Translations under genes and position numbers: made by a program
Part shown: positions 3,956-44,231 of the stretch, piece after piece
Layout of the letters: every line of letters begins with the position of its first letter
Position numbering within the stretch: position 1 is the stretch's first letter
The notes under the pieces: model-generated
Told to the model about the DNA's origin: nothing
The model's input: only the letters and a program-made list of their open reading frames with translations
Databases searched by the model: none
NCBI RefSeq assembly: GCF_000332075.2
Contig: NZ_KI966370.1
Location: 19,391 to 83,390, forward strand
Direction: 5' to 3'
Length of the DNA: 64,000 nt
From: Synechocystis sp. PCC 7509
GTDB taxonomy: Bacteria; Cyanobacteriota; Cyanobacteriia; Cyanobacteriales; Chroococcidiopsidaceae

Positions 3956-3967
3956 CTAACTGATAAA

Positions 3968-4932: not shown

Positions 4933-4935
4933 AGT

Positions 4936-6198: not shown

Positions 6199-6335
6199 AA
6201 AGCAATCCTTAAATGCTTTAAAGAGTAATGATACTTTCCCAAACCCATAGCTCTCATTGGTTATGCGCTAATACAAGAGTAAAGTCCCATTCTAGGTTAA
6301 AATCCTTAATTACCCAAATCTAGGGTTTATACAAA
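6044..6335. mobile_element. MITE inserted in the Tn3 transposase (copy 1)
   Basis: Terminal inverted repeats: the left end reads TTTGTAAGAACCCTCGGAAA followed by GGGGGATTAG; the right end of copy 2, read inward, gives TTTGTATAAACCCTCGAAAA followed by GGGTGATTAG. About 292 bp, no coding capacity. The homologous element in copy 2 spans 39760-40051. No clear target duplication was found. Confidence 0.6.
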
Positions 6336-6441
6336 TAACTCCAAGTCGAAGGCTCTGTTAGTTGTTGTTGGTTTGTCGCTCCCCTAATAATTAGTAAATC
6401 TCTCGCTTGATTTGTAAACGCCGAGCCTAGGCGCTTAAGTG

Positions 6442-20178: not shown

Positions 20179-21015
20179 TCACTCCTGTCCACCTGATTTC
20201 GGATCTAAGCTATGACCGTCCTGCATCAGGCGATCCTTAATGAAAGCAACAGTCTGAGACTCGGCCACTACAGTCGGATGGTTTGGTTCATCAACATGAT
20301 GCACGCCTAATACCGAATGTGCAAATTGATTAATCCCATGACAATTGCCTCGGGACGAATCGATTTCGATAGCCTGAAAGTTAGTGCCAAATTCCTCATA
20401 GAGCCGATGAAAACGCTCATTTGGTACGAAAATATCGGCGGTGAATCGCAGGCCGAGGACACAGATGCCTTGTTCCGCACTTCTCTTTTTCGCTTGGAAA
20501 AGCGTATCCTCATCAATACCGAGATCCCGTTTACGATCCGGTGTTAGAGCAAAAGGAAGCGACGGATTGCAAACTACAGGTGCTAAAACAGCTTCTTCTA
20601 CCATCATAGCCAAGGCAAATCCTCCAGTTATGCACATACCGATTGCCCCGACTCCTGGACCGCCGCATTCAGTATGGGCGTGTCTAGCTAAACATCGTAA
20701 CCAAGATGTCACGGGACTGTTTTTGGAAGTTGCTAATACAGTAAACTCATGCATAACACAACCACGAATTAAAGACGCGGCGATGTAATAGGCATTTACC
20801 TCTTTACTGGGCTTACCAAACAATGAAGGCAGCCAAACTGTTAAGCCAGCGTCGCATAGGGCGTTGGCTAGACGAATAACACCTGGGTGAAGACCTGGAA
20901 CCTCGTGCATGACAATCACGCCTGGTCCCTTACCCTTGCGAAAAACGCTGCGGGTCTCATTTTCAAAAGTTAGTTCAAGCTGCTCAAAATCGGACAAATC
21001 TTGTAACATAGTCAC
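20179..21015 (-). CDS. Dienelactone hydrolase family protein
   Basis: A 278-residue alpha/beta hydrolase. The nucleophile is Cys128 in GAIGMCITGGFAL, as in dienelactone hydrolases; Glu38 in MHEVPGL matches the conserved active-site Glu, and the late Asp (RFTADIFVP) and His (NCHGINQF) complete the Cys-His-Asp triad. The family hydrolyses lactones or esters of small molecules. It sits between leuA and the PEP-CTERM gene on the same strand, about 70 bp from the latter, so it is probably part of the cluster as a tailoring or lactone-opening enzyme. The substrate is unknown. Confidence 0.75.
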   Translation of the reverse strand: MTMLQDLSDFEQLELTFENETRSVFRKGKGPGVIVMHEVPGLHPGVIRLANALCDAGLTVWLPSLFGKPSKEVNAYYIAASLIRGCVMHEFTVLATSKNSPVTSWLRCLARHAHTECGGPGVGAIGMCITGGFALAMMVEEAVLAPVVCNPSLPFALTPDRKRDLGIDEDTLFQAKKRSAEQGICVLGLRFTADIFVPNERFHRLYEEFGTNFQAIEIDSSRGNCHGINQFAHSVLGVHHVDEPNHPTVVAESQTVAFIKDRLMQDGHSLDPKSGGQE

Positions 21016-21086: not shown

Positions 21087-21827
21087 TTACCTAGGTAGCT
21101 TCTTAAGCTTCTTGCGCTTGTTGACCGCATAGCCTACACAAAAAACACTAAACAAAGCCAAGCCAGCATTTGTTGTCGGCTCAGGCACAACTTGCAGCGA
21201 GCCGTTGTAAGGAACTGGACCAAGGAAGTTGTCGGGAGTGAATTGACTTAACTTAATCCCTGGAGGAATGTTGGGAATAAAACTTCCTACTGCGATTTGA
21301 ACCTCATTAGTTTCCAAATCAGTTAGTGTCCCCGTAAGCCGAGATGAGATCTTAAGAATCGAAGGATCCAAGGGATCGGAGTTAGGATCGATTTCAGCAA
21401 CTCGATTAATGGTTTCTAACTGAAATGTGAAGTTAACGGAGTTAGAAGTAGTAAGGCTCAGAAAGTTTGGCACATAAAAATTCGGGTTATCCGAGCCGTT
21501 AAACAACGGACCTGATTGCATAATTAATCCAGAGGAGCTTCCTTGGTGGACATCGCGAATTGTTCCAAGTTGTGAAGGGAATGTAAGCGCAGGGCTAAAA
21601 GAGCCGCTAGCATCAAGAACTTGGAAACTGCCATCTACATTAGGATTAGATATTACAGGAAAAGTAGAGGAGTCAACATAATCAAACTGAGTAGAACTAC
21701 CAAAAACATAGCCAGAAAAGTTAATACTGCTACCAATTGTTGCTGCATTGACAAAGCTAGTGCTTGTTACTACACCCGCTACAATGAGTGGAATCGTTGC
21801 CATTGAATGAAGAAGTTTCGTTGTCAT
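21087..21827 (-). CDS. PEP-CTERM sorted extracellular protein
   Basis: A 246-residue protein with an N-terminal signal peptide (IPLIVAGVVTSTSFVNAA) and a C-terminal PEP-CTERM signal: VPEPTT, then a hydrophobic helix, then RKKLKKLPR. Exosortase cleaves such proteins in the envelope (family knowledge). The middle is Ser/Asn/Thr-rich and not assigned. Its ATG overlaps the stop of the PP-loop gene (ATGA at 21825-21828), so the two are translationally coupled. That is odd for a surface protein in a biosynthetic operon; it could be a later joiner. Confidence 0.8.
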   Translation of the reverse strand: MTTKLLHSMATIPLIVAGVVTSTSFVNAATIGSSINFSGYVFGSSTQFDYVDSSTFPVISNPNVDGSFQVLDASGSFSPALTFPSQLGTIRDVHQGSSSGLIMQSGPLFNGSDNPNFYVPNFLSLTTSNSVNFTFQLETINRVAEIDPNSDPLDPSILKISSRLTGTLTDLETNEVQIAVGSFIPNIPPGIKLSQFTPDNFLGPVPYNGSLQVVPEPTTNAGLALFSVFCVGYAVNKRKKLKKLPR

Positions 21828-22927
21828 CAGGTTCTCTCTTTACTACCAGCCATCGATTTTTCAACCCGAACAGTTTTGTTGTCTTGTATGCGAAGCTCAT
21901 CAGGCTGCAAGTCCAGCCACTGTAGCGATCGCTCAATATGCCGACCCAAGAAGACTTTTTTTTGCGCCATAAAATCCATGAGAAAAAAGAGGACTCGCCA
22001 GACTGAGCGTTGAGCTTTTCCTTCGCGAATCAACTGGGAAAACTCCGGCTTATAGGGGTTATAGCCCAAGTTTTTGAGATCGGAATAAATTAAGAGCCAA
22101 TTCAAAGTAAAGTTGCTCAAAACGGGATTCACATACCAGCGATTCTTTGCCAAACCCAGTTCCACAACACGTTCCATAACCTCTTCTTGGTTATAGTCCC
22201 AAACATGAAAAGGTGCGATAATTCGCGGGAATTTTGCACCGTGAGCGTAGCGATAGGGATTCCAGAATAAAGACCGCTCAGAATCATTGAATAAACCGTT
22301 GTCAAATAATTCGTGAGGAGTCCAATCTGCTTTTGATATTCGTTCTTGAGGCATCTCGTAAAGCATCCGCTCAGGGTCAGGTTGACCTGGAGAATATCCT
22401 GTCAAAATCAGCGGGATGTTCTTCTCCATAGCCAAGCGAAGAATGTCTCCCTCTCGGATATCTAACCAAAAATAGCAAACTGTATGCACGGCTCCACGCT
22501 TATTTTGGTTGCACAAAAGATAGCGAATGAATCGCTTATAGATATCTTTAGACGGAGTCTCCACGTGATGGTCGACATTTAGATGCCGCACTGTACGGTG
22601 GATATTGTCCCAGGTATTCGGAGGAATATCAAAATCACTTGTGTAGGCTAGAACCCGCAGTTTGTATTCCTTGACAAGTTTGTATAGCAAGTAGCAGCTA
22701 TCTTTGCCCCCGCTAAACGACAAGATGCAGTCGTATTCGCCCTGTAACGATGGATTTCGTAGTGTTTCTTCTAAATCGCCTCGTAGTGCAGCACGATCGC
22801 TTTCTTGCTTCTGTCTATCTTCTGTTTGCATCTCCCACTCTCTGCACAGGTTACATACTCCATCGTTATCGAAGCTGACTCCTGCAACTTGTGTGGTTAA
22901 CAAGCATCTTTTACATGTCTTAGTCAT
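21827..22927 (-). CDS. PP-loop ATPase, amidotransferase/sulfurtransferase type
   Basis: A 366-residue protein. The N-terminus has two Cys pairs, CKRC (5-8) and CNLC (25-28), as in N-acetyl sugar amidotransferases (WbpG/PseA-like), followed by the PP-loop SGGKDS (72-77) that binds ATP pyrophosphate. Such enzymes adenylate a substrate carbonyl and replace oxygen with nitrogen or sulfur. No partner glutaminase (HisH-like) is nearby, so ammonia or sulfide may come from elsewhere in the cluster: the ThiF-like protein or the PLP lyase are candidates (inference). ATG at 22927; the next gene upstream ends about 165 bp away. Confidence 0.75.
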   Translation of the reverse strand: MTKTCKRCLLTTQVAGVSFDNDGVCNLCREWEMQTEDRQKQESDRAALRGDLEETLRNPSLQGEYDCILSFSGGKDSCYLLYKLVKEYKLRVLAYTSDFDIPPNTWDNIHRTVRHLNVDHHVETPSKDIYKRFIRYLLCNQNKRGAVHTVCYFWLDIREGDILRLAMEKNIPLILTGYSPGQPDPERMLYEMPQERISKADWTPHELFDNGLFNDSERSLFWNPYRYAHGAKFPRIIAPFHVWDYNQEEVMERVVELGLAKNRWYVNPVLSNFTLNWLLIYSDLKNLGYNPYKPEFSQLIREGKAQRSVWRVLFFLMDFMAQKKVFLGRHIERSLQWLDLQPDELRIQDNKTVRVEKSMAGSKERT

Positions 22928-23092: not shown

Positions 23093-23860
23093 CTACGCCC
23101 TCACCTCAGAAACGCGAGTGTAAACTTTCTTAGCATAGTTAAGCGCATCGTCAAGAAAGTCTGCGTATGAATTAAGAGCATCACCCGCCGTTTTCACAAG
23201 GGTATCTGTATACTCAGGATGTTGAGCAAGAAGCTTGTGGACAACTTCAAAGTTCGTTTCAGTATGACCAACATCAGCACGCACGTGTTCATGAAGAAAG
23301 CTAATACTTGGTAACGAGTCTTGCCCCATGCAATCAATCCAGTTTTTCAAAAGGAGAGGTCCATAGGTCGTCGATATCAATTCGATCTCCACATCAATTG
23401 CTAATTCATCCCATGGAGAATTCCCTTCGATAACGTGTTCATGTAACTGATGATAGCGTTTGACGGCAGGACTCATTTTCTCATTAAGTAACTCTTTTGA
23501 ATCGAGCTGAAAGTTAGGCTCTTCTCGATTCCAAGCTTCAACGAGCTTTTTGACATCTTCTGTTGCCCAGTTATCATGGCCTTCTTCTTCCTCTTCGTGT
23601 TCGTAGAAAAACTCTGCCATCTCCTTCAAGCCTTTTTCTTCACAGCGCTGACCTGCGCGCTGCAAATAGTTGGGGATTGGTTCGGTAAGACCTGCGCTTA
23701 AGGCACTCCAATGAATCATGAAGAGTTTGAGAAGCTTAGGATCGATATTTTCTGTAAATATCTCTCTTACAACCTTTCTCACTGAAAACTCCTTGCGTGC
23801 TGGCTCGCATCTTCTTTGGTATTCGTTTTGATAGACCTGTGTATTTTCTAATGTCGTCAT
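23093..23860 (-). CDS. Haem-oxygenase-like diiron oxygenase (HDO) candidate
   Basis: A 255-residue, all-helical protein related to the TenA/PqqC/haem-oxygenase fold. Likely metal ligands occur in the pattern of HDO enzymes: the acidic cluster with His95-Asp96 (EEGHDNWA), Glu158/Glu160 (DVEIELIS) and the late His192..Asp196..His199 (EHVRADVGH). Known HDOs perform N-oxygenation, oxidative decarboxylation or C-C cleavage of amino or fatty acids. ATG at 23860. It is in line with the GST and PP-loop genes. The substrate is unknown; a non-catalytic homologue is possible but the ligands look intact. Confidence 0.7.
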   Translation of the reverse strand: MTTLENTQVYQNEYQRRCEPARKEFSVRKVVREIFTENIDPKLLKLFMIHWSALSAGLTEPIPNYLQRAGQRCEEKGLKEMAEFFYEHEEEEEGHDNWATEDVKKLVEAWNREEPNFQLDSKELLNEKMSPAVKRYHQLHEHVIEGNSPWDELAIDVEIELISTTYGPLLLKNWIDCMGQDSLPSISFLHEHVRADVGHTETNFEVVHKLLAQHPEYTDTLVKTAGDALNSYADFLDDALNYAKKVYTRVSEVRA

Positions 23861-23976: not shown

Positions 23977-24669
23977 TTAAGTCTTCTGCGGATTCACACC
24001 AAATAGTAAGTGACGTGCTTCGTCATCCATCTGTTCTTCGCCTTTAATAGGTTCTCCTACTTCATAGGCTCGTTTTACGGCTGGACGTTCGCCGATCCGG
24101 GCTACCCACTCTGCAACTCTTGGAAAATCGGCAAGCGGAATGCCGATCAAATCTGAAAATTGGATCCAGGGATAGCAAGCCATATCAGCAATTGAGTAAT
24201 CACCTGTAAGATAGTCTCGCTCGCTCAATTGTTTTTCCATTACTCCGAACAAACGTTTCACTTCATTCGCGTAGCGTTTTTTGCCATAGGGAATATCTTC
24301 TGGAGCGTACTGAATAAAATGATTTGCTTGCCCCATCATGGGGCCAACCCCGCCCATTTGCCACATTAGCCATTGAATTGTTTGGTGGCGATTGCGTAAA
24401 TCTGACGATAAAAACTGATCGGTTTTCTCTGCTAAATAGATAAGTATGCTACCAGATTCAAATAAGGCTAGGGGTTCATCTCCATCAGCAGGAGCGCTAT
24501 CAACGATAGCAGGTATGCGATTATTGAGCGCGATCACCAAAAAATTTGGTTTAAATTGCTCCCCTCGCATAATATTTATAGGTTGGATTTGGTATGCAAG
24601 TGTACTTTCTTCGAGAAAAATAAGGGGTTTATAACCATTAGGGGTCGGCCAGAAATAGAGATCGATCAT
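23977..24669 (-). CDS. Glutathione S-transferase, YfcG/Ure2p-like
   Basis: A 230-residue cytosolic GST. The thioredoxin-fold N-domain shows WPTPNGYKPLIFLEE, the cis-Pro region NNRIPAIVD and the gamma-Glu site FESGSILIYLAEK. The helical C-domain contains GDYSIADMACYPWI, the GST N-capping and hydrophobic staple motif. YfcG-type enzymes act on glutathione disulfide or conjugates. In this cluster it could attach glutathione to an electrophilic intermediate that a lyase later cleaves. ATG at 24669, 47 bp after the PLP-lyase gene. Confidence 0.85.
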   Translation of the reverse strand: MIDLYFWPTPNGYKPLIFLEESTLAYQIQPINIMRGEQFKPNFLVIALNNRIPAIVDSAPADGDEPLALFESGSILIYLAEKTDQFLSSDLRNRHQTIQWLMWQMGGVGPMMGQANHFIQYAPEDIPYGKKRYANEVKRLFGVMEKQLSERDYLTGDYSIADMACYPWIQFSDLIGIPLADFPRVAEWVARIGERPAVKRAYEVGEPIKGEEQMDDEARHLLFGVNPQKT

Positions 24670-24716: not shown

Positions 24717-26003
24717 TTATGTCACAGGTCGATAATGCGACCTCATGAATCCCGTCAAGCCTGGGTATTTTTTGACGATCTCAAGCCCTTGGATACTATC
24801 TTTGTCCGCGAGAACGGCTGAAATATCATCAGCGGCTTTTGCGATTTCTTCTACACTTAATCCCATAATGGGTAGAGCAAAACGAACAAAGCTGATATTA
24901 TTGGCTATCTGCGCTGGGGAGCTATGATTTACAGAGCCGCGAATACCATAGTCGCTAAATAGTCGATGAAGGAAAGCCTGTTCCGGGTGTAGTTGATGCG
25001 GAATTCCTAGATTCTGTGTACTGGCATTGAGAAATATAGCATGCCCCCCGGCGGGTCGAGCCACTACAGGATGAGCTTGGAGAGCATCATGTAGTTTCTT
25101 TACAATATTCATTCGTTTGCGTACTCGCTCAAAAACATCATCCATATTGTTCATTGCATAGGCGAGATTCTCCTTAGCAACATGACTCAAGCCACTACCT
25201 AAAAGCGCAACTTGATCTACGCAGCGATAAAATAGTTCTGGATCTCGGGTAGCAAAAAATCCACCTATTGAAGTCGGAAAATCTTTGGTTGCGCTCATTG
25301 TACAACCATCTGCATAAGAGCAGAATTCACGAATAATCTCACCTACCGGAGTGTTTCGATATTGATCTTCTCGCTCCTGAATCAGATATGCATTATCAAT
25401 AATCCGGCAGGCATCTAAATATACGGGGATGTGGTAATGATGGGCTAAATCGGCAACGGCTCGCATATTCTCTAGCGATATAGGATGTCCGCCGACAGCG
25501 TTGTTACAGGGTTCAACACAAATGTAGGGAATCCAGCGGGGATGGTAAGTTTGAATTACTTGCTCAAGAGCCGCAATATCAATATTTCCCTTAAATGGAT
25601 ATGGGCTAGCTACGTCCAAAGACTCAGCGCTCATGACTTCTACAGGTGTTGCACCGTTTCGTTCTTGATGAACTTTAGTAGTAGGAAAGAGGGAGCTACC
25701 AGGAATATAATGACCATTTCGGATCGTAGCATGACTTAAAATTGCTTCGGCCAGCCTACCTTGAGAAACAGCCATAACATAAGGAAAACCAAAGTATCGG
25801 CTGAAGATATCCTCAACACTGATGTTGCTGTGACATCGCTCTTGGTGGAATTCAGACCCGTAACCTACTGGGGGAAGGGACTTGTGCATGAGGCTATCGC
25901 TCTGAAGATCCAGCGTAATCTTCTCACTTGGAATAATATCGAGATTATGCCCAGCCAGTTCCAAAACTTGCATCCTATGAGAACGAGCCTCAGTCAGATT
26001 CAT
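24717..26003 (-). CDS. PLP-dependent beta-eliminating lyase, tryptophanase family
   Basis: A 428-residue fold-type I PLP enzyme. Lys240 in SATKDFPTSIGGFF is the likely Schiff-base lysine, and Asp197 in YLDACR would pair with the pyridine nitrogen, as in tryptophanase and tyrosine phenol-lyase. These enzymes cleave the C-beta bond of amino acids, including C-S bonds. Length is slightly below tryptophanase (about 470). The gene overlaps the E1-like gene by 4 bp, so the two products are probably made together. A C-S lyase role with the GSTs is a hypothesis; an aldolase or transferase reaction on the same fold is an alternative. Confidence 0.75.
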   Translation of the reverse strand: MNLTEARSHRMQVLELAGHNLDIIPSEKITLDLQSDSLMHKSLPPVGYGSEFHQERCHSNISVEDIFSRYFGFPYVMAVSQGRLAEAILSHATIRNGHYIPGSSLFPTTKVHQERNGATPVEVMSAESLDVASPYPFKGNIDIAALEQVIQTYHPRWIPYICVEPCNNAVGGHPISLENMRAVADLAHHYHIPVYLDACRIIDNAYLIQEREDQYRNTPVGEIIREFCSYADGCTMSATKDFPTSIGGFFATRDPELFYRCVDQVALLGSGLSHVAKENLAYAMNNMDDVFERVRKRMNIVKKLHDALQAHPVVARPAGGHAIFLNASTQNLGIPHQLHPEQAFLHRLFSDYGIRGSVNHSSPAQIANNISFVRFALPIMGLSVEEIAKAADDISAVLADKDSIQGLEIVKKYPGLTGFMRSHYRPVT

Positions 26004-26839
26004 TGCTGTTCTCCTTCAAACTGTGTCCGAATCTCGCTAACATCAATAATTTGATAGCTCATCCGAAATAAATCGAAGAACATTCCTTTGGGCAACACAA
26101 TCGGTTTTCTAGAACCAGGTATTATACCGTCTAGAAGGTGCGCGATACACTCAGTAGCCAGTAGGGAACTAGCAATAGCTGGACCTACTGCGAGGGTGGG
26201 AATCTTCCCAATTTTTAGACTCTGCCCTATAATATCAATCTGCTCAGGCATAAACCATTCTTTGAAAATGCTAGGTAGTGCGGTGGATTGCTTGGCGTTA
26301 CGAAAAGTACGTGTCCAAAATTCCATACTCATGCCTAGTGGTGAAGAACACAAAGCAAAGCAGCCAAATCCCAAAATTGGGGCGACTACGCTAAATACTC
26401 CTAGATCGCGTGCCTTCTGATGCATAGTTTCTCTTAATTCATAAGGTACCCCGGCATCCAAGCAGTCCACAAGAATATCGGTACCTTGCAGAAATTCATC
26501 CTGATTATCATTGGTAAGACCTTCGGTAAATACTTGAACTTGAGCATCAGGGTTTATGTCCAAAATTAAGTCTCGATAAACCTCTGCCTTATTTCTGTCC
26601 ATAGTCGAACCGAGCGCGCCCCACTGCCGATTCATATCTGGTGGATCGAAAATAGCCGGATCTGCCAAATGGAAAGAGCCGATTCCCATGCGACACATAG
26701 TTAATGCCATCGCGCCTCCAACACCACCACATCCAGCAACAACAAGTTTTCGGGAGGCTAAATACTCAACGCCTGCGCTAGTGAGCAGAGGTATACTTCG
26801 ATTCAGAAAATGGTCTTGTGAACTAATTGAGAGAGTCAT
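26000..26839 (-). CDS. ThiF/MoeB-like E1 adenylyltransferase
   Basis: A 279-residue protein with the Rossmann nucleotide loop GCGGVGG (36-42), the MNRQWG segment that corresponds to the ATP-contacting Arg of E1 enzymes, and DILVDCLDAGVPYELRE, the conserved Asp/DN-type block. No rhodanese domain and no clear CxxC zinc pairs are seen, so it is a short form. E1-like enzymes adenylate a carboxylate, usually a carrier-protein C-terminus but sometimes a free acid or peptide, for sulfur or amine transfer. No small carrier protein is visible in the cluster. Overlap with the PLP lyase indicates co-expression. Confidence 0.8.
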   Translation of the reverse strand: MTLSISSQDHFLNRSIPLLTSAGVEYLASRKLVVAGCGGVGGAMALTMCRMGIGSFHLADPAIFDPPDMNRQWGALGSTMDRNKAEVYRDLILDINPDAQVQVFTEGLTNDNQDEFLQGTDILVDCLDAGVPYELRETMHQKARDLGVFSVVAPILGFGCFALCSSPLGMSMEFWTRTFRNAKQSTALPSIFKEWFMPEQIDIIGQSLKIGKIPTLAVGPAIASSLLATECIAHLLDGIIPGSRKPIVLPKGMFFDLFRMSYQIIDVSEIRTQFEGEQQ

Positions 26840-27103: not shown

Positions 27104-27790
27104 TTAATTCATTAATAATGCAACTGGTAATGCACTATCGGGAAATAAAGACCTAATACCTTTATCGTACTTACCGAAGTCTTTGCCAAAACAGACATCA
27201 TCGCGGGTCATATACACAAATTGAGCTTTGACGTTGTGGATTGTGATCAGTCCCCCGGGCATATCCTTCATTCCTAGTCGAGCCAATGTACGGTGGTTTC
27301 CAGAGGCTATCAAAGGCATCCCCATAAGCAGATCGAATTCTGGTCGCTTCTCGTATAGGGCAATTGCCGCGCCCGGTAAAGCCACAGAAAGAAACAGCCC
27401 CCCTACCATGGCTCGCCGATAATGCCTGCCTACTATGTTGTAAGAAGATGTCATGATCGTCTTGAACCCATTGTTGAAGATAAACGCCATCGCTTCATCG
27501 GGCAGCGTCTTCAAATACGAGATGTCCCTGTAAGCAGCAAAGTTAAGATCTATGTGATTAATCAGTGCAAGAGCAGCAATATTTTGACCCTCTCGCAACA
27601 CCAGAATCTCATCAGCACTAATGAATTTATCCGAAATATTGACAGACAGACCCTCCAAGCTGAGGTCGTTGATGGCTGTAATCCATTCCTGTTGCCAAAA
27701 CTCATAGGCATTGTTGTATGCGAGTCTATTCACCTGCTTCTTCTTGTCGAGCAATTCCATGCTAACAAAGCCGTATTCTTTGATATTCAT
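27104..27790 (-). CDS. Unknown cluster protein, possible acyltransferase-like fold
   Basis: A 228-residue protein I do not recognise with confidence. Alternating strand and helix pattern, the segment GRHYRRAMVGGLFLSVALP and an N-terminal half with FISADEILVLREGQNIAALA recall GNAT or autoinducer-synthase-like folds, but no diagnostic motif is visible. It lies between the MAPEG gene (42 bp) and a 264-bp gap, in the same direction as its neighbours. A role in the same pathway is inferred from position only. Confidence 0.45.
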   Translation of the reverse strand: MNIKEYGFVSMELLDKKKQVNRLAYNNAYEFWQQEWITAINDLSLEGLSVNISDKFISADEILVLREGQNIAALALINHIDLNFAAYRDISYLKTLPDEAMAFIFNNGFKTIMTSSYNIVGRHYRRAMVGGLFLSVALPGAAIALYEKRPEFDLLMGMPLIASGNHRTLARLGMKDMPGGLITIHNVKAQFVYMTRDDVCFGKDFGKYDKGIRSLFPDSALPVALLMN

Positions 27791-27832: not shown

Positions 27833-28264
27833 CTAGCCTAACCCATATAAAACTGCACCTATGTTCCAACTCATCCCCAGTAAACAAAGGATTCCCACCG
27901 CATACGCAATAGTTCGCCAAGGCTGCAAGCCGAGCAGGTAAGTTAACGTATGAAGAATCCGCGCGACTGTAAAAGTAGAAAACAGCCAGGTTGCTGCCTT
28001 AGGCGATGCTCCAACCAGCACATAGGCTATTCCGAGACCAAGAAATATGGGAATGTTCTCCAAGTCATTCAGCCAAGCTTTGGCCGCACGTTGGACTTGT
28101 GGCACTTCCGCCTCGGCAGGCGGCTTATTGAATACTTGAGCGTCCTCAGGGTTCATAAATGTACGTCTGCTAAGGCGATAAAAACCTTGATAAGCTGAAA
28201 TCGCAAACATTTTCAAAAACAGTGCTATGACGCACAACGAATACCAGTCAATAGCGGTTTTCAT
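27833..28264 (-). CDS. MAPEG family membrane protein
   Basis: A 143-residue protein with four hydrophobic helices. The loop motif RAAKAWLNDLENIPIFLGLG is the diagnostic RA..NDLENIP signature of microsomal glutathione transferase 1/prostaglandin E synthase-type MAPEG proteins. They use glutathione at the membrane for conjugation, isomerisation or peroxide reduction. It is the second glutathione-linked protein in this cluster. ATG at 28264; 60 bp separate it from the oxygenase gene upstream. Confidence 0.85.
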   Translation of the reverse strand: MKTAIDWYSLCVIALFLKMFAISAYQGFYRLSRRTFMNPEDAQVFNKPPAEAEVPQVQRAAKAWLNDLENIPIFLGLGIAYVLVGASPKAATWLFSTFTVARILHTLTYLLGLQPWRTIAYAVGILCLLGMSWNIGAVLYGLG

Positions 28265-28323: not shown

Positions 28324-29457
28324 CTAGACAGATATCCTTCTAATAAATTCTGCCTGATCGAACTCGAAGGCAAGTTTTGCCCCAGAAGCTGCGTCCGAAC
28401 CCCATCCATCTTTAAGGCATGTTAGAACAGTTTTGCGAAATCGACTTGAGGTGATCCACATGAGTGAGAATAAATCATGACCCATGACTAGCTTGTTGAT
28501 AGCTCGGGAGGCAATTCCAATCGATGGTTCAGGAGTATTCACGCAGTGCCACCACCAGTGAGGAGAAAACAGGACATCTCCGGGTTCTAAGGTTACAGTG
28601 AATTTAGGGATGTAACGATACAAGGGATAACCATCTGTCTCAATCTCATCATTGCTCTTCTTCCAATCAAGCATAGTGGCGGTATAAAACATATCCTTGC
28701 GTGTGATTGGATGCATCCACATGGAATGTTGGGGATGCACCAATGTCCATTCCTTACGCCCATATACCATCGTAAACAGGTTTGGTCCTCCTGTGGCATG
28801 CCACCCTGAGCGCACCCCTCCTCCAGACAGAAACATCTGAGTTGACATGATTCGCTTATCTCTGGTACTCAGATATTTCCCTAGGGTTTCGAGATCAAGC
28901 GCATTGCGTAGCGTAGGATTTTTATTAAACAGATCCTCCGTGTGACCAGGATAATACGTTCCACCGTTTTGGATATTCTCCACTACCTCGGACAATGGTA
29001 TATCTACATAACGGTACGCCTCTTCGTTGAGTTGGTTAGCGCGAACACGTGTGGAGACTAGTTCGTGACCATAATTGGCTTCAAAAAACTCCGGTGTCCA
29101 TGTCTGTAAAGCTTCCCAGTGTTTTGCCATCTTCCGAAAAACAACTGGAGTATTAGGTTTGAGATACACTTCGTGAAATTCTTCAGCAGAAATATCATCA
29201 ATCGTCAGCTCAGGAACTGGCAGCGTCGGTGCGTCCCCGTAAGAGATAGATTGGGACTTGATGGTATCTTCAATTCTCTGCGTTTTTTCCGCACACCAAG
29301 GCGGTCCATAAGGACCATGTTGGGCGCGACCTACAAAGTAGTAACGGTATAGAAAATGTGACCAATACTTTAGCCGCGTGATCCTGTCGACCTTTGGTGA
29401 CGAACTAATATCGATCGTCGGAAATGTTTGTGGATATTGTGCAATGCTAACTACCAT
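28324..29457 (-). CDS. JmjC/cupin_8-type Fe(II)/2-oxoglutarate oxygenase with altered HxD motif
   Basis: A 377-residue protein of the cupin_8/JmjC hydroxylase group. The first iron-binding region reads SGWHATGGPNLFTMVYGRKE followed by WTLVHP; aligned to family members, His220 is kept but the position of the iron-binding Asp of HxD is Thr222. The distal His is present in LEPGDVLFSPHWWWHCV (His304). Loss of that carboxylate is known from Fe/2-oxoglutarate halogenases, where Gly or Ala frees a site for halide; Thr is unusual. It may thus be a modified oxygenase, a halogenase-like enzyme or inactive. First gene of the cluster, downstream of the 70-bp repeats. Confidence 0.75.
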   Translation of the reverse strand: MVVSIAQYPQTFPTIDISSSPKVDRITRLKYWSHFLYRYYFVGRAQHGPYGPPWCAEKTQRIEDTIKSQSISYGDAPTLPVPELTIDDISAEEFHEVYLKPNTPVVFRKMAKHWEALQTWTPEFFEANYGHELVSTRVRANQLNEEAYRYVDIPLSEVVENIQNGGTYYPGHTEDLFNKNPTLRNALDLETLGKYLSTRDKRIMSTQMFLSGGGVRSGWHATGGPNLFTMVYGRKEWTLVHPQHSMWMHPITRKDMFYTATMLDWKKSNDEIETDGYPLYRYIPKFTVTLEPGDVLFSPHWWWHCVNTPEPSIGIASRAINKLVMGHDLFSLMWITSSRFRKTVLTCLKDGWGSDAASGAKLAFEFDQAEFIRRISV

Positions 29458-29527: not shown

Positions 29528-29716
29528 CTGCAAACTTAACGATCTTGAGCTTCTAATTACGTAAGCACACTGGAATATGAAGCAGATTCAAGGGAGCCTG
29601 CAAACTTAACGATCTTGAGCTTCTAATTACGTAGGCACACTGGAATATGAAGCAGATTCAAGGGAGCCTGCAAACTTAACGATCTTGAGCTTCTAATTAC
29701 GTAGGCACACTGAAAT
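29528..29716. repeat. 70-bp tandem repeats upstream of the biosynthetic cluster
   Basis: CTGCAAACTTAACGATCTTG begins at 29528, 29598 and 29668, giving a period of 70 bp and about 2.7 copies that are nearly identical (one A/G change and one change near the end). They lie 70-260 bp upstream of the first cluster gene, in its probable promoter region. The remainder of 29458-29880 shows no gene. Confidence 0.85.
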
Positions 29717-29974
29717 AATACCTTGCTTTCAGAAAAAGGTCAGCTTTCGCAAAAAATCTTAACAAACTGATTTTATAGAACGCATTTGAGATCTTAAGAA
29801 GGGGTAATGGTTCAGACGTGTTGATATAGCTGCGAAATTATGCTGCAATCAGATAAAGTATCTAATATGAGAGTTCAGTAATGGTTTTAGAGCCAGTTCC
29901 CTGCCCGAATTGTAGCAGTATCAACGTAGTCAGACATGGGAAAACAGCACAAAAAAAGCAGCGTTACCAGTGTC

Positions 29975-30878
29975 GGTAGTGCGTCAATTCAATGTGGGAT
30001 GATATAGTGACAGGGTGGTTTTAAACTCGAAGCATCTCTATGGATTGTCCTCTGTGTGGTCACATTAAAGCCCATAAACATGGCAAGATGCCGAACGGAC
30101 ATCAACGTTACCTGTGTCCCGCTTGCCATCAAACGTTCTCGGAATCCTTCGACAGTTTGTACTATCGTCGACATATTAGTCCTGAACAAATTCGCCAAGT
30201 GTTGCAAGCACATAGTGAGGGCAGTAGTTTACGAGGGATTAGTAGAACAACTGGGCTTGCCTACAACACAGTTGTGAGTATTGTTCGCGCTGCCAGTCAA
30301 AAAGCCCAATTGGTTCACAATGCCGAAGTCCAAGCTGTACAAACAGAGGAGGTAAGTGCCGATGAGATGTGGTCATTTGTCTCAAAAAACAGAAACAGTG
30401 TTGCGCTCAAGAACTAGAAGTCGGGGATTGTTGGATCGGTCTGAGTCTTGCCGATTCAAGTGGCTTAATTCTGGCGGCGCGAGTTGGCAAACACACTGAT
30501 GAACTGATTGGTCAGTTAGTCCTCAACACCGAGGGAAAAACAAATTGCAAGCAATTTAACAGTGATGCTTGGGGCGGGTATGAGCGAGTTCTACCTCCTG
30601 AAATTCACCACTACATTGGCAAAGACAAAACGCAGCGATTAGAACGTACTAATGGTACTGTGCGACAACAAACCGGAAGATGGCATCGACGACAGAACAA
30701 GTTTGGTAAGGTGTGGGAACAGACAAAAGTGACAACTCGATTAGTGGTGAGTTACTTCAACTGGATTTGGCAGCATAGCCGATTCAAAACAACTGCTGCA
30801 CAACGAGCCGGATTAGCAACGAGAGCGTGGAGTTGGCATGATATTGCTACCTATCCCACATTAATTTGATGCATCACC
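29975..30878 (+). mobile_element. IS1-family insertion sequence with 8-bp target duplication
   Basis: Length 904 bp. Terminal repeats of 26 bp match at 21 positions: left GGTAGTGCGTCAATTCAATG then TGGGAT, right (inward) GGTGATGCATCAAATTAATG then TGGGAT. The target repeat CCAGTGTC occurs at 29967-29974 and 30879-30886. Both transposase frames are intact, so the element looks recent and possibly active. Confidence 0.9.
30040..30869 (+). CDS. IS1-family transposase made by -1 frameshifting (InsA/InsB')
   Basis: The first frame (30040-30417) gives an InsA-like protein with zinc finger CPLCGHI..CPACHQTF and a helix-turn-helix. The second frame (open from 30369, ends 30869) gives the DDE part, with WIGLSLADSSG, SDAWGGYE and the C-terminal LVVSYFNWIW. 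They overlap at A AAA AAC (30384-30390), a classical -1 slippery heptamer; slipping joins DEMWSFVSK to KQKQCCAQELEV. The product is the 276-residue fusion transposase expected for the family. Confidence 0.85.
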
Positions 30879-32296: not shown

Positions 32297-32626
32297 TTAT
32301 TCATCAACATCTGTCAGTGCCTCATCCAGTAATAAGCGCACTATATCAGCTTTCTTCCTGCCAGTTTTTGCCGCCAGCATGGTCAGCTTCCGGTGCATCG
32401 ATTCCGCTAGGTCTACGGTGAAGCGCACTGTTGGTTCTTTGGCTGGGGTCTGGAGCTTAGACATTAAATCGGTTTCCTTTGATGGTTTTGGTTTTACAGG
32501 TTCCGGCGGTACTGGCACTTCTTCAGCCGCCAAAGCCGCATTTTCTTCTGGTTGCTCCTGACTACCATAAACAAATTGACTTGCTAGGGTATCCTGCAAT
32601 GACTTTCTTGGCTTTTTGGTACTCAT
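32297..32626 (-). CDS. Ribbon-helix-helix partition partner of ParA
   Basis: A 109-residue protein. A Pro/Glu-rich flexible N-terminal half precedes a C-terminal ribbon-helix-helix (VRFTVDLAESMHRKLTMLAA followed by KADIVRLLLDEAL). This tail-plus-RHH layout matches ParG/CopG-type centromere-binding proteins. Its ATG overlaps the ParA stop (ATGA). With the large palindrome upstream of parA it forms a complete partition locus. It converges on the toxin gene, 7 bp away. Confidence 0.75.
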   Translation of the reverse strand: MSTKKPRKSLQDTLASQFVYGSQEQPEENAALAAEEVPVPPEPVKPKPSKETDLMSKLQTPAKEPTVRFTVDLAESMHRKLTMLAAKTGRKKADIVRLLLDEALTDVDE

Positions 32627-33267
32627 GGCAGCAGCCCCAAAATCTCTTTAAACAAACGTTGGTATTCCCTGGCAGACTCCGCCGCAGGTCGCCCAGGTAA
32701 ATCCCAAACTGTTGTCCCTTGACCACTGGCATCCGCGATCGCCTGCTTTTGGTGAATTACGGTATGCAGCAGGCGCAGTTCGGGAAAGTTGCTCAATAGT
32801 TGCAAGGCTTCTTCCTTGAGCTTCGTCCCTTTTATAGCTCGGTTCAAAAACAAGGCAGCCTTGGGCGGACCAGAGCGTACTGATTGCGCTTGGCGGATCA
32901 GTCGCACGGCGTTAGAAGCCGAACGCAAGTCTAGACCCGTAGGCTGACACGGCACTATAGCTAGATCGGTGCGAAACAAAATTGCACGAGTTGCTTCCGA
33001 TAAACCCGCAGGACCATCGACTACCAGGTATTCACAGCCCGTTGCTAAATCCGGCAGGGATTCTAGTAAATCGTCTGGTTGGATTAACACTTGATAGGGG
33101 AGAGAGTTATCCATTGACTTTAACCACTCGGAGCTACTAACTTGCGTATCAGCGTCCACCAGTAGAACGGTCGCGCCTTGCGCTCTTAGCCAGCAAGCAA
33201 AATGGACGGCAGAAGTGGACTTCCCCGAACCCCCTTTTTCATTGACAAATCCTATTACAGTCCCCAT
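32623..33267 (-). CDS. ParA family partition ATPase (short, type Ib-like)
   Basis: A 214-residue Walker-type ATPase: deviant Walker A KGGSGKSTSAVHFA near the N-terminus, Walker A' VDADTQ and Walker B-type LVVDGPAGLSEATR. There is no N-terminal HTH, as expected for type Ib ParA. The enzyme positions plasmid copies through ATP-dependent nucleoid binding. It is co-transcribed with the RHH gene; the 36-bp palindrome at 33288-33323 lies 21 bp upstream of its start and should be operator and/or centromere. Confidence 0.85.
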   Translation of the reverse strand: MGTVIGFVNEKGGSGKSTSAVHFACWLRAQGATVLLVDADTQVSSSEWLKSMDNSLPYQVLIQPDDLLESLPDLATGCEYLVVDGPAGLSEATRAILFRTDLAIVPCQPTGLDLRSASNAVRLIRQAQSVRSGPPKAALFLNRAIKGTKLKEEALQLLSNFPELRLLHTVIHQKQAIADASGQGTTVWDLPGRPAAESAREYQRLFKEILGLLP

Positions 33268-39250: not shown

Positions 39251-39754
39251 TCGCCCTCCAATGGACTTGTTTTTTTAGTGATAAGTGAGTTACTGCTACT
39301 GATTAATCAGCGCGTTCAATTGGCTTGAATGACTCTAGTACGTGACTAACTCCAAATTGGATGCACTATCTCTAAAAAATCTTTGATATTTTTTCCTAGT
39401 AGCTGCATGGGCGAAATGAGCAACCGTACAGAAAGTTATGCGCTTGGCTGATAAGCGATCGCGTATACAGAGAGTTTCACCCAGGAGGTGAATGATTACA
39501 GGTGAAATGAAGTCCAAGGTCAATCGGCTTTAGACTACCTTTAGGAATAACGGACTTAGTAACCCCCTTTGAGTAATTGAGCAAATTTCCTACTTACTAT
39601 TTATTAAGCGCTTAGATGACTTGGAACTGACCAAGGAGCGCAAAGCGCAACAGCTAAATAGACCTGTCAGCGAGCCAATTTTCTCTGTTGAGCAGCAGTG
39701 TTGTTGCTGGTCGAATTTTAAAAATCTTACTGACTCTGAGGATTAATAGTTTGG
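39251..39754. other. Intergenic gap before transposon copy 2
   Basis: About 500 bp with a HIP1 site near 39455 and no convincing gene. A 62-codon minus-strand frame (39335-39523) has no recognisable family. Confidence 0.5.
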
Positions 39755-39759
39755 GGTTA

Positions 39760-40051
39760 TTTGTATAAACCCTCGAAAAGGGTGATTAGGGATTTTAACC
39801 TAGAATGGGACTTTACTCTGGAGTTAGCGCATAACCAATGAGAGCTATAGGTTTGGGAGAGTCTCATTACTCCTTAAAGCATTTAAGAATTGCCTTTTGA
39901 GACATGAAAAAAGACACAATATAGGTGAGTCTCAAAAAGTAGAGTTTTTGAGATGTATTTTGCAAGTGAAAAGCTTTGCTAGGAAGAATTACAAGGAGGT
40001 AACACCAAACCTCTTTTTTTACTAATCCCCCTTTCCGAGGGTTCTTACAAA
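39760..40051. mobile_element. MITE in the Tn3 transposase (copy 2)
   Basis: Same element as at 6044-6335. Here its outer end is the better-preserved one: TTTGTATAAACCCTCGAAAA then GGGTGATTAG, matching the inner end by inverted repetition. Confidence 0.6.
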
Positions 40052-41159
40052 AAAAACCAGACTGGACTCGCTCGCCCAAGAGCGCTGTATCGCTTTCTCC
40101 TGCTGATGTCTGTAAAATTTCAGCTAGGACTCCCAGCATCGATTCCGTCTGAGCTAAATGTTGCTCGCGTAACTCTACTAGCTTGTCTTTGGCGCAGGAG
40201 TGCATTTTCTGCACTCGCTTGAGAAACATTTCCACCAAATGGTCACGAGTTTTAACTTGGACGCGATAAAGCAGACAAACTAATAGAGCGCGACGTTTGG
40301 TTAGTTTCAACTCCCGCAAGTCCGTCAGAGACAAGGCTTTGGCTTGAGCTGCAAAAGATTTAACTTTAGCGGGTGCGATGGTAACGAGCAACTGGCGAAC
40401 ATCCCCACAGGTGAGCATCTGCTCGAATTTAGTTTGTAATGCTTGAACGTGAGACAGGCGCGCACTTTTTGGTGGCGATCTCAATAAACTGAAGGTTAAT
40501 CCTGATTCGGGTAAAGTAGCTACCAAATCATCTACAAATGCTTGCTGGGCAGAAGTCATAGCGGTAGCGACCCGACCAAACAGGCGGTTATTAACAACGG
40601 TACGAATATGACCGACTAAACGATCTAAGGTACTAAAAGCTGGTAATTCATACCTTTCTTTGACCAATTCTTCGACTGCGACATTGATTAAATCAGCAGG
40701 ATACTCCATCACCTCAGCCGCTTGCGAGATAACCGTAGCAATGGCAGTTTGAGCCTTACGGTCGTATGGATTAACGCCCAAGTAAGCCCGAATTGCCTCA
40801 GCATAGTAGTAGCGCGAACGTTCGGGCGGGATGGCACAGACATTGGCACTGAGATTCAAACAAGACCGAATAGGAAGGGCAACCGTTGGTGGGACTGCTT
40901 CCGACGGTGGGAAATAACCCAACCTCTGGAATGATTTGAGCATCACTAACAAGCGCAGCAGCCCGCGTTTACTTTTAACCTGTGTTTGGGCAAATGCTAG
41001 CTCCGATGCTGATGGAGTATAAAGTTCAGTCAGTTCCTTGACGGTTGCCTGAGATTTGAATCGAGGATAAGCCGTGCGTTCGATAGCGGTCATAAAGCCG
41101 TTGGGAATTCCAGATCGATCTGGCTTTTGCTCAGTTGTCCAAGGCAGAGTATAAGCCAT
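39867..41159 (-). pseudogene. tnpA: Truncated Tn3-family transposase (N-terminal part, copy 2)
   Basis: Same protein as copy 1 for the first about 409 residues, including the transposase-like N-terminal about 365. The MITE-derived tail differs (it ends ..SQKAILKCFKE instead of ..SLFIS) because the two MITE copies have diverged. The DDE catalytic domain is absent. Confidence 0.8.
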
Positions 41160-41218
41160 ACTCTGTCAATTTATGACAGATACCAATCAAACAGTATTTT
41201 AAGTAAATTTATTAACAA

Positions 41219-42127
41219 CTAAATTTGACTATTTTCTGCTCCTTGTAGCAATCGATCTAAAGCTGCTTGAGCGACAATCTCGGCTCGTTCGGAAGTAACT
41301 TTTTGGTAGCGTAATGTGGTCGCAATGTTAGTATGTCCCATCAAAGCACGTAGCTCCTCGATGCCCATTAAGCCAACTCGTTCGGTGGCAAAGGTGTGCC
41401 TGAGATCGTGCATCCTAATCCCATCGAGTTCTGGTGCGCTCTCAATCAAGTTTGTCCAGTCTCGATGTGCTGTTCGATAACTCAGGCGGGTAACTAATTT
41501 GGTTACGGGTTTTTGGGCAGTAAATAGGGCATCCGATTCTGGGTGACGGTAGTATTTTAGATATTTCTCTAATGCTGTTGCTGCATCTTCACTGTAGAAA
41601 CACCACCGGATTTTATTACCTTTCCCAATCACCTGAAATTTGCGCATCTTTAGATTGAGGTCTGATAAGTTTAGTGCTAAGACCTCGGCAATTCTGGCAC
41701 CAGTGCGATGCAGCAAGTACACCAGAGCTTTCATCCGACTGTGACGGTCGATTACTTGGTAAAGTGTGGTGATTTGGGATAGGGATAGATACCGAATCAC
41801 TCGATCTGAAAAATGCTCTCCCCTTTCAGGGTTGGGTTTGCGTCGTTGAAGTCGGGTGATAGGGTTAACTTTCAAGTAACCTTGCTCTACGGCGAAGTTG
41901 AATAGAGCTTGTAAGATTGCTTGATGTCGTTGATGAGTCGTGTAAGCTAGATGGGGTAAGCTGTCGAGGTAATCGGCTAATGCCCTACGGCTCAAGATTT
42001 CAATTGGATAACTGCCGTATTCTCCCAGTAGCGGCATGAGACTTAGTTCGTAGGATTGAACGGTGCTTCGAGCGAGTCCTGGACGCTCCAAGAATTCAGT
42101 AGCGACTGTAGCTAGTGGGATAGACAA
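41219..42127 (-). CDS. Tyrosine recombinase, TnpI-like (transposon copy 2)
   Basis: A 302-residue protein identical to the 3968-4876 product, with the full R-K-HxxR-H-Y catalytic set. TTG start at 42127. Both copies may be active. If they recognise the palindrome region between regulator and recombinase, recombination between the two inverted sites would invert the segment between them; homologous recombination could do the same. Confidence 0.85.
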   Translation of the reverse strand: MSIPLATVATEFLERPGLARSTVQSYELSLMPLLGEYGSYPIEILSRRALADYLDSLPHLAYTTHQRHQAILQALFNFAVEQGYLKVNPITRLQRRKPNPERGEHFSDRVIRYLSLSQITTLYQVIDRHSRMKALVYLLHRTGARIAEVLALNLSDLNLKMRKFQVIGKGNKIRWCFYSEDAATALEKYLKYYRHPESDALFTAQKPVTKLVTRLSYRTAHRDWTNLIESAPELDGIRMHDLRHTFATERVGLMGIEELRALMGHTNIATTLRYQKVTSERAEIVAQAALDRLLQGAENSQI

Positions 42128-42210
42128 TTTATCAGTTAGTTTACCTAGTAAAGTTGAATAATACTTTCCATAGTATAGTTCTGAGTTAACATATTTTAAA
42201 ACACCGTTTT

Positions 42211-42681
42211 GTGAATATTCTTCAAAGTAGTAAATCGCCCAACGCTAATGAGACGGTAGGTGATTATGTCAAACGAATGCGATTAATGCTCGGTTTGAAC
42301 CAGAAGGAACTGGCAGCTATCGCAGGGATTCACTTGCAGAGCGTGGGAAAAATCGAACGCGGGTTGACAACTAAACTGAGTTCTCACAGTAAAAGTGGTT
42401 TGGCAAATGCGCTGCAAGTTCCGGTGGAATATTTAGAGGCGGTCTGTCGTGGCACTCCGATTGTGGCTGTCTCTCAACTCAAATTCTGTGCGCCGTGCTG
42501 GACTCCTGGAACGCCGCCAGATCCTCTCTGGATGGAGGTGAGGGCTAAATACTGCTTTTTGTGTGGTTCTGCGCTCCGAGAGCGCTGTAGCTATTGCCAA
42601 GAGAGGATTACTTCTCTCAAGCATCGGTTCTGTCCTTTTTGTGGGACTGCTTCCAAGGCTGAAGCTAATTTTCAAAGCTAG
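42211..42681 (+). CDS. XRE regulator with zinc ribbons (transposon copy 2)
   Basis: A 156-residue protein identical to that at 3414-3884: N-terminal Cro/C1 HTH and four CxxC pairs at the C-terminus. GTG start at 42211, divergent from the recombinase. Confidence 0.7.
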   Translation: MNILQSSKSPNANETVGDYVKRMRLMLGLNQKELAAIAGIHLQSVGKIERGLTTKLSSHSKSGLANALQVPVEYLEAVCRGTPIVAVSQLKFCAPCWTPGTPPDPLWMEVRAKYCFLCGSALRERCSYCQERITSLKHRFCPFCGTASKAEANFQS

Positions 42682-42692
42682 TCTAGGCAAAG

Positions 42693-42740
42693 CTTAGAGG
42701 GCTATCTTGCAGGTTTTTACACGTATCCTGTAGCAATCCC
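42693..42740 (-). repeat. Tn3-type terminal repeat of copy 2
   Basis: Exact inverse of 3355-3402. Flanking bases differ between the copies (ATA before GGGATT at copy 1, TTA at copy 2), which marks the outer boundary at this end. Confidence 0.75.
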
Positions 42741-42942
42741 TAATAGGGGTAAAGCTAGCGAGCGTGTCATGAGGGGCAAGATAGTACAAATTTACCTAAA
42801 ACGAGGTTTGTCGTATGCTAATTACAGGACTGAAACCCTTATTCTTTCATTACAGCCTTGTCTAACAAGGCTTAGATGATTTATCTAAAAGCGATGGGCA
42901 AAAAGCTTATGCAGCAATACTCTCAGCCTATCTTGCCCCTAG

Positions 42943-43116: not shown

Positions 43117-43506
43117 TTATAGCTTTAGCTGTTGCCGTAAATCATCTATATTTCTAATAGTGTTCCAATCAATATCGGTGGAATGTAGTAAATCAATGGC
43201 TACACCAATGAGGTGCTGAGGGAACACGCGATCGCTTGGAGCAACAGGAGTGTCGTTGTTATCGCGCACGGTACGTGCTGTTTGGGATAACCAGGTTTGT
43301 GAGGTGCGAGTAATTTTGACATTGATGTTTACAAGTTTCTCCGGCTCTGGTTGTTTTTGTCTAACTGAAGGCGAAACTTCTAGTTCTGAGGAAGAAACTT
43401 TTTCTGGTGATGAGATCGCCTCTGGCTCTTGCTTTGGCTTGCTTGTTTTACCAAAGTCACTTAGCTTACCTAAACCGCCCATTCGAGAGCCTTTTCTATC
43501 CGTCAT
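43117..43506 (-). CDS. Partition partner of the second ParA
   Basis: A 129-residue protein from the ATG at 43506, which overlaps the ParA stop (ATGA). An upstream start at 43530 would lie inside parA and is less likely. The N-terminal part is Ser/Glu/Pro/Lys-rich and flexible; the C-terminal about 70 residues (VNINVKITRTSQTWLSQTAR, then PQHLIGVAIDLLHSTDID) could form a strand plus helices of a small DNA-binding domain. Position and size identify it as the ParB-like component; the fold is not certain. Confidence 0.6.
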   Translation of the reverse strand: MTDRKGSRMGGLGKLSDFGKTSKPKQEPEAISSPEKVSSSELEVSPSVRQKQPEPEKLVNINVKITRTSQTWLSQTARTVRDNNDTPVAPSDRVFPQHLIGVAIDLLHSTDIDWNTIRNIDDLRQQLKL

Positions 43507-44231
43507 GACACCTTCCACAGTTTGCTGCATTCTTTAGCAAGAGATTGATAAGCTTTTGCGCCACTAGAATTAGAGGCGTAGTCAAGAATCGATTTTTGCA
43601 CCGCGATAGACTCCGCCACGCTGATATTTTCAGGAATTACAGCGTGTAGAAGCCGATAGTCCATCTCCACAGAGGATTCAATCAGTAAATCGTCCGCCTC
43701 GCGGGTCAAAACTAATCGCGGTTTATAGCGTACCCGTAAAGCTTCAATGGGCATATCTGGTCTTTCATCTCGAATTAGCGTTATCGCTTCAGAAAAACCC
43801 CGCAAGGCAGCAGGTTCGCACAAAGTTGGTACCAAAACGCGATCGCTGCTCAGAAGTGCCTGCACGGATGCAACACTCAGGCTAGGCGGACAGTCCATCA
43901 ATACCAAATCGAAAAAGCCAGTCAGCCTCGACAGTGCAGGAGTAAACAAGTCGGATTCGGTCGCCAGGCGAAACATCCCAATATCCCCAGGAATCAGGGA
44001 CAGGTTTTTTGTGGCTGTAGATAGGGGAGTAAATAGCCCTTCTGAAGTCAACCAATCGAGTGCTGTAGGAGTCTGTCCATCCATACCTAATCCGAATGAA
44101 AGCGTCCTCTGTCCATCAAGGTCAATTACCAACACTCGACGCTTGGGACAAGCCAATGCTGCACCTAAGTTCAAAGCTGTCGTACTTTTTCCAGTCCCGC
44201 CTTTGAGATTGAATACAGCTACCTTCAACAT
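43503..44231 (-). CDS. parA: ParA family partition ATPase (second locus)
   Basis: A 242-residue ParA/Soj-like ATPase: FNLKGGTGKSTTALNLGAAL (deviant Walker A), VIDLDGQRTLSFGLG (Walker A') and LVLMDCPPSLSVASVQALL (Walker B). It differs clearly from the short ParA at 32623 and resembles chromosomal or plasmid type Ib/Soj forms. Repeats of TTAAnGGTATTA (44264-44380) upstream are the likely operator or centromere. Two unrelated ParA loci in one molecule suggest plasmid fusion. Confidence 0.85.
   Translation of the reverse strand: MLKVAVFNLKGGTGKSTTALNLGAALACPKRRVLVIDLDGQRTLSFGLGMDGQTPTALDWLTSEGLFTPLSTATKNLSLIPGDIGMFRLATESDLFTPALSRLTGFFDLVLMDCPPSLSVASVQALLSSDRVLVPTLCEPAALRGFSEAITLIRDERPDMPIEALRVRYKPRLVLTREADDLLIESSVEMDYRLLHAVIPENISVAESIAVQKSILDYASNSSGAKAYQSLAKECSKLWKVS

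Follow-up and report, generated by a model that had tools for sequence, protein, structure and literature searches.

The window, a stretch of 64,000 nucleotides from Synechocystis sp. PCC 7509, encodes a Cupin_8 protein with a real, conserved and unusual active-site change. The protein belongs to a branch of the family that has lost the iron-binding carboxylate, carries a threonine at that position, and is encoded within a cyanobacterial gene cluster. We read it as a functional two-histidine Fe(II)/2-oxoglutarate (2OG) enzyme, most likely an aliphatic halogenase or a close radical-transfer variant, which performs a tailoring step for a small conserved biosynthetic cluster. This is the explanation we favour, though its chances fall somewhat short of even. 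The enzyme probably carries out unusual radical chemistry towards a natural product. What makes an Fe/2OG enzyme halogenate rather than hydroxylate has long been in question, and the usual rule for natural enzymes is that HxD/E hydroxylates and HxG/A halogenates. A conserved HxT clade falls outside this rule.

Active-site residues of the Cupin_8 protein

The 377 aa protein is encoded by a minus-strand ORF at 28324..29457 (ATG start, stop codon included). It matched the Pfam model Cupin_8 (PF13621) with an E-value of 1.1e-26 and 94.7 bits, against a curated cut-off of 27.4, which bears out the Cupin_8/JmjC family call of the initial annotation. The only other Pfam match up to E 1 was a sub-threshold JmjC_2, and no NCBIfam model matched at E 1. 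The translation reads GGVRSGWH220-A-T222-GGPN226LFTMVYGRK235EW, then PGDVLFSPHWWWH304C, with R318 further on. H220-A-T222, G233-R234-K235-E236-W237 and H304 were all found where the initial annotation had placed them, the codons of H220-A221-T222 being CAT GCC ACA (28792-28800, minus strand).

In the alignment with JMJD5, T222 faces the Asp of the HQD iron triad, confirming that a threonine stands in place of the iron-binding aspartate, and no Asp or Glu occupies the HxD position of the third ligand. H220, K235 and H304 face the His, Lys and distal His of JMJD5, respectively. Among the rows of our family alignment, the metal-binding histidines assigned in this way were invariant (63 of 63 for H220, and 62 of the 62 rows with a residue there for H304), and the JMJD5 Lys equivalent, K235, was kept in 63 of 63. 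In Cupin_8/JmjC proteins the lysine at this position binds the distal carboxylate of 2OG. On the Pfam and alignment evidence we assign the protein as a Cupin_8/JmjC-fold Fe(II)/2OG-type enzyme. It does not have the Gly or Ala of the HxG/A halogenase motif, all five known copies carrying Thr, and it shows the AspH-like combination of an absent carboxylate with both histidines kept. AlphaFold2, run on a three-row alignment of the window protein and two orthologues, returned a pLDDT of 29.6.

Conservation of Thr222 among orthologues

Orthologues were rare. A scan of a collection of 84,980 species, covering close relatives only, recovered copies in Nostoc flagelliforme FACHB-838 (91% identity) and Microcystis aeruginosa LEGE 91341 (81%). 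Whole-genome searches gave matches at E <1e-200 in 2 of 386 genomes across the phylum (the window genome and G097) and in 4 of 388 genomes across the order (the window genome, G430, G097 and G580). In the window's own genus, five further genomes, of 65-99% completeness, gave no cupin match at E 1e-20. The G097 copy (L003) was counted together with that of Microcystis LEGE 91341 (L032), the two cupins being identical. This left four orthologues, 80-91% identical to the window cupin, and five distinct copies in all: the window, N. flagelliforme (L031), M. aeruginosa (L032), G430 (L033) and G580 (L034).

In that order the motif reads HAT, HAT, HCT, HST and HAT. All five copies thus keep Thr222 although residue 221 differs among them (A, A, C, S, A). 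This settles in favour of fixation the question that the initial annotation had raised about Thr222. A random substitution was rejected on the same grounds. The Thr222 codon is ACA in four copies and ACC in one. Nor is it a sequence error, because all five genomes have this Thr and one of them encodes it by a synonymous codon. The idea that the window copy is a pseudogene was also rejected, as its frame is open and its dN/dS is low. Nei-Gojobori dN/dS values for the cupin were 0.083 against L031, 0.090 against L033 and 0.054 against L032, the last covering 319 codons only and dS being 1.3-1.8 for the L033 and L032 comparisons. On codon alignments these values lie near the bottom of the range for seven cluster genes.

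The gene is intact in 3 of the 5 copies (the window, N. flagelliforme and G430). In the Microcystis copy the first ~40 codons lie in another frame, and a single in-frame TAG interrupts that of G580, in a cluster whose MAPEG gene is in two pieces. The cluster is decaying in some hosts.

A branch of Cupin_8 proteins lacking the carboxylate

The tree was built from 61 Cupin_8 rows from the window and the collected loci (74 collected, 13 duplicates dropped) and two PDB chains, with residue columns 219-224 and 318 excluded. For each locus the best-scoring open frame was taken, and neighbouring paralogues in G358 and G430 were collapsed. Three rows are incomplete: L003, without its N-terminus, and the partial L034 and L094. 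The sample comes nearly all from the window's own phylum, the rows from outside it being a Burkholderia plasmid (L087) and the two PDB chains.

The 22 rows lacking the carboxylate (16 HxA, 5 HxT and a single HxG, PDB 8a82) separated from the 41 HxD rows, JMJD5 included, as a single branch with 99/99 support. All HxT proteins fell into a single clade (100/100 support) that is nested inside the HxA rows and whose branch measures 1.09 changes per site. The four motif states require three changes on this tree, the minimum possible. From this unrooted tree we infer, as the simplest history and order of events, that Asp would have been lost once to Ala (or Gly), and that Ala would later have changed once to Thr. 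Several rows sit on long branches, among them 8a82 (2.67), whose position within the carboxylate-less branch is unsure.

Other residues followed the same division. Arg318 was found in all 21 carboxylate-less rows with a residue there, as against 1 of 41 HxD rows; JMJD5 has Trp. Asn226 was shared by 21 of the 22 carboxylate-less rows, the exception being 8a82 with Ser, and by 12 of 41 HxD rows. F209 and F228 likewise differ between the two groups. The co-conservation of Arg318 suggests a site occupied by an anion or in need of charge balance. Among the HxD rows, Arg318 occurs only in L026 from G024, which sits on a very long branch (3.23) and may be misaligned or belong to another lineage. Together, the branch and Arg318 mark cyanobacterial Cupin_8 genes that classical halogenase models might miss.

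The plasmid search returned 12 distant records and no orthologue, the best match being an HxA relative. No relative of the cupin was found in phages, nor in viral contigs scanned with two alignments.

The gene cluster and its genomic setting

The cupin gene is the first of a series of genes on the same strand, all with minus-strand coordinates. It is followed by a MAPEG-family membrane protein (27833..28264, Pfam), present in all five clusters, and by an ORF for a conserved 228 aa protein of unknown family (27104..27790), which measures 217-233 aa across the clusters and for which Pfam and NCBIfam gave no match at E 1 and the PDB profile search none better than E 0.15. A ThiF/E1-like adenylating-type enzyme of 279 aa (26000..26839) comes after it. 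Next is a PLP enzyme of 428 aa like tyrosine phenol-lyase (TPL) and tryptophanase (24717..26003), whose best solved relative was tyrosine phenol-lyase (E 1.6e-76). Its PDB matches include 9cen, labelled 'Polyketide Synthase Protein', which we take to be a PLP thiocysteine lyase domain of a polyketide synthase (PKS). Such lyases occur as PKS domains in the leinamycin family, according to an excerpt of PMC8479088.

The series continues with a glutathione S-transferase (GST; 23977..24669), nearest to GSH-dependent disulfide-bond oxidoreductases below the model cut-off, and a haem-oxygenase-like iron enzyme (23093..23860), a candidate diiron oxidase that matched Haem_oxygenas_2 above cut-off and found no convincing match in the PDB profile search. 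A PP-loop ATP pyrophosphatase-type protein (21827..22927) was nearest to the N-acetyl sugar amidotransferase WbuX, below cut-off. Then come an exported-type protein without a Pfam match (21087..21827), the C-terminal end of which we take to be PEP-CTERM-like, and a dienelactone-hydrolase-like protein (20179..21015). The exported-type gene has two copies in L031 and L050 and one in L051. The dienelactone-hydrolase-like gene also lies near the cluster in L031 and L051 and was not found in 20 kb of L050.

Gene order from the cupin to the PP-loop gene was identical in the window, L031, L032/L052, L050 and L051, as compared by BLAST (L050-L052) and by ORF lists (L031, L032 and L050). Farther along the window lie isopropylmalate synthase and cytochrome-type genes, for which BLAST found no match in L050-L052 (17-20 kb). 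A 70-bp tandem repeat (29528..29717, no strand; 2.7 copies, 98% match) lies directly upstream of the cupin gene, and the upstream regions of three orthologues, when aligned, showed no counterpart of it. The matches listed by a search of open-licence PMC literature, a weak negative, included neither an HxT Fe/2OG enzyme nor this cluster.

An inverted repeat of 2992 bp, 99% complementary (3353-6344 and 39751-42742), surrounds 33.4 kb that hold the whole cluster. Judged by eye, the ORFs in each arm (156, 302 and 420-430 aa) are helix-turn-helix-like and tyrosine-recombinase-like. The segment between the repeats may be able to invert, or may have been moved as one piece. An IS1-like transposase (by eye) in two overlapping frames (30040-30869) adjoins the cupin gene. 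ORFs resembling relaxase and ParA by eye are found at 59130-60719, 32623-33267 and 43503-44231, and suggest that the 86,542-base contig is a plasmid.

Neighbourhoods of the HxA relatives

The surroundings of 10 of the 16 HxA rows (L053-L061 and L086) were examined, some neighbours of each being classified by Pfam or record annotation. Biosynthetic-type genes lay near the cupin in 6 of the 10. They comprise an AMP-binding/acyl-CoA dehydrogenase fusion and a P450 in L054; a P450 and a glycosyltransferase in L055; a squalene-hopene cyclase with squalene epoxidase, a P450, two Rieske oxygenases and an ERG2-like gene in L056; a squalene-hopene-cyclase-like gene, a squalene/phytoene synthase and three P450s in L057; and AMP-binding, phosphopantetheinyl transferase and ABC transporter genes in L058. 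On a Planktothrix agardhii plasmid (L086), where the cupin motif is HCA, the neighbours are P450s, a squalene/phytoene synthase and prenyltransferase/squalene oxidase repeats. The HxA cupins of L056, L057 and L086 lie in triterpenoid-like clusters and are candidates for terpenoid halogenation. Several Cupin_8 genes of this branch sit in triterpenoid-like and other uncharacterised clusters.

The genes tested at the other four loci were of non-biosynthetic type: pilin and rRNA methyltransferase genes in L053, a transposase in L059, GGDEF and phosphoesterase genes in L060, and flagellar hook and pilin-type genes in L061. In L060 (12172-15457) the HxA cupin lies between response-regulator/GGDEF and phosphoesterase genes, a signalling-type setting.

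Proposed reaction and alternative readings

We infer the details of the fold, the binding of metal and halide, and the reaction as follows. H220 and H304 would hold Fe(II), and K235 would anchor 2OG with N226 nearby. An anion, with chloride the likeliest, would fill the coordination site freed by the loss of Asp. A haloferryl species would then form from O2 and 2OG and abstract a hydrogen from the substrate before rebound of the halide. Thr222 would line the anion site as a second-shell residue, perhaps with a hydrogen bond to the anion or its water. Arg318 would place a conserved positive charge near the site.

Lacking the literal HxG/A motif, the window protein is not classed here as a halogenase, but it probably works like one. 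Halogenation, which the initial annotation had named as one possibility and which is putative for the HxA and HxT proteins alike, gained support because the protein falls among HxA proteins and the HxG protein 8a82. Against it, Thr is unlike Gly or Ala, and a side chain of its size, with a hydroxyl, could keep halide out or hold water. The known copies number only five, and two of these are damaged. Among the ten HxA neighbourhoods, the six with biosynthetic-type genes speak for the reading and the other four against it. Nor does loss of the carboxylate prove halogenation, since AspH hydroxylates with water in that site, and changing Asp414 of prolyl 4-hydroxylase to Ala or Gly does not turn it into a halogenase (PMC2767507).

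A water-filled site is the alternative to which we give most weight. In an AspH-like two-histidine oxygenase, the Thr222 hydroxyl would hold water in the carboxylate site and the enzyme would hydroxylate, desaturate or cyclise its substrate without halide, Thr instead of Ala selecting water over halide. AspH itself works with two His ligands and water and does not halogenate (PMC13168262, in part), and a Thr fixed in one clade nested among the sampled HxA rows is what would be expected if the outcome had changed. However, the same excerpt reports that AspH needs second-shell residues to keep its water, and the nearest relatives of the HxT proteins are HxA and HxG, the halogenase type. We consider this reading possible but unlikely. 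A halide-independent radical group transfer or oxidative cleavage, for which the vacated site would take another anion or the substrate itself (a carboxylate or thiolate) to yield a C-S, C-N or cleaved product, seems improbable to us. The cluster is rich in glutathione- or sulfur-type enzymes (GST, MAPEG, ThiF-like, PP-loop and TPL-like lyase), and Arg318 could hold an anionic substrate. Yet this Arg is common to the HxA relatives, whose gene neighbours differ, and ligation by a substrate is hypothetical.

The inactive protein that the initial annotation had also allowed for would be a catalytically dead one that is retained to serve the cluster as a scaffold or regulator. An incomplete canonical triad and a frame change or stop in 2 of the 5 copies are in keeping with this, but both histidines, the 2OG lysine, Asn226 and Arg318 are retained, dN/dS (0.054-0.090) is among the lowest of the seven cluster genes, and the broken MAPEG gene of G580 points to decay of the whole cluster. 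Inactivity is made unlikely by the purifying selection and the kept lysine, and we put its chances as low. Still less credible, and in our view very improbable, is a third ligand supplied by an Asp or Glu elsewhere, with Thr222 a bystander, or a reading error. The alignment showed no acidic column specific to the branch: E157 (19 of 22 carboxylate-less and 33 of 41 HxD rows) and D294 (21 of 21 and 40 of 41) are not replacements that arose with the loss of the carboxylate, because they are acidic in most HxD rows too. The ligand elsewhere that the initial annotation had considered therefore finds no counterpart in the branch as a whole, while acids confined to the HxT clade do occur, such as E236 beside K235. 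The five HxT rows share E145, E146, E174, E236, D255 and others, mostly missing from HxA and HxD rows, but this is weak evidence because these rows are ~80% or more alike and share most residues anyway.

The halogenase-type reading can be carried further, to a proposal that we regard as a long shot. The HxT clade may represent a novel kind of Fe(II)/2OG active site, with a fixed Thr hydroxyl that shapes the vacated site or binds weakly at it, and cryptic halogenation may feed a glutathione-dependent sulfur pathway. Since GST and MAPEG belong to glutathione-linked families and a C-S lyase role is conceivable for the TPL-like enzyme, the chlorine on a carbon chlorinated by the cupin may be displaced by glutathione through GST or MAPEG and the adduct cleaved to release a thiol. 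The ThiF-like, PP-loop and haem-oxygenase-like enzymes would then finish a cyanobacterial product. No peptidase for glutathione trimming was recognised in the cluster series.

Comparison with known enzymes

Searched against the PDB with the branch profile, the best match was 8a82 (E 1.6e-41), ahead of JMJD5 (2.5e-32) and FIH (8.9e-29). A single HxA protein (L036) also gave 8a82 as best (4.1e-20), while with the window protein alone JMJD5 (1.7e-16) ranked ahead of 8a82 (2.9e-13). The entry 8a82 is labelled 'Cupin_8 domain-containing protein', and we take it to be OocP, the Fe(II)/2OG halogenase of oocydin biosynthesis. OocP is described as an Fe(II)/2OG halogenase in an excerpt of PMC11260071, and as carrying a cupin-like domain in one of PMC4552970. 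Like the window protein, 8a82 has a Cupin_8 domain in which the carboxylate is missing and both His, the Lys, W237 and R318 are kept. It differs in being HxG (HQG) and in having Ser for Asn at 226. OocP works within a polyketide synthase module with a partner, OocQ (PMC11260071, in part), whereas no PKS gene was recognised among the ORFs read around the window cluster.

The 16 HxA rows from cyanobacteria (L004-L008, L023, L035-L038, L049, L086 and L091-L094) are 28-34% identical to the window protein locally and 19-29% over the alignment (11 of the 16 rows). They share with it the loss of the carboxylate and Arg318 (15 of 15 rows with a residue there), and differ in having Ala for Thr and, where examined, other gene neighbours. 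We know of no activity for any of them. The JmjC hydroxylases JMJD5/KDM8 and FIH have the same domain as the window protein, and JMJD5 also has both His and the Lys, but their HxD triad is complete, and JMJD5 has Trp where the window protein has Arg318.

Human AspH is from a different protein family than Cupin_8. It resembles the window protein in having two His ligands and no carboxylate; its vacated site holds water and it hydroxylates without halogenating, as far as the cited part of PMC13168262 goes. The Pfam matches of the window protein up to E 1, Cupin_8 and the sub-threshold JmjC_2, place it outside the AspH family. The classical Fe/2OG halogenases SyrB2, WelO5 and BesD also stand apart, in other subfamilies of the fold. 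If the window protein is a halogenase, they would share its principle of two His and a vacated carboxylate site (PMC4019311, in part), differing in that they have Ala or Gly rather than Thr (PMC8407142, in part). The same review, in excerpt, states that halogenases usually swap the carboxylate for Ala or Gly, and HXG/A serves as a halogenase mark in a recent pipeline (PMC12871659) and in PMC12171316, both cited from excerpts. Set beside these enzymes, the HxT clade inside the HxA/HxG branch is a natural test of a polar residue in the halide pocket.
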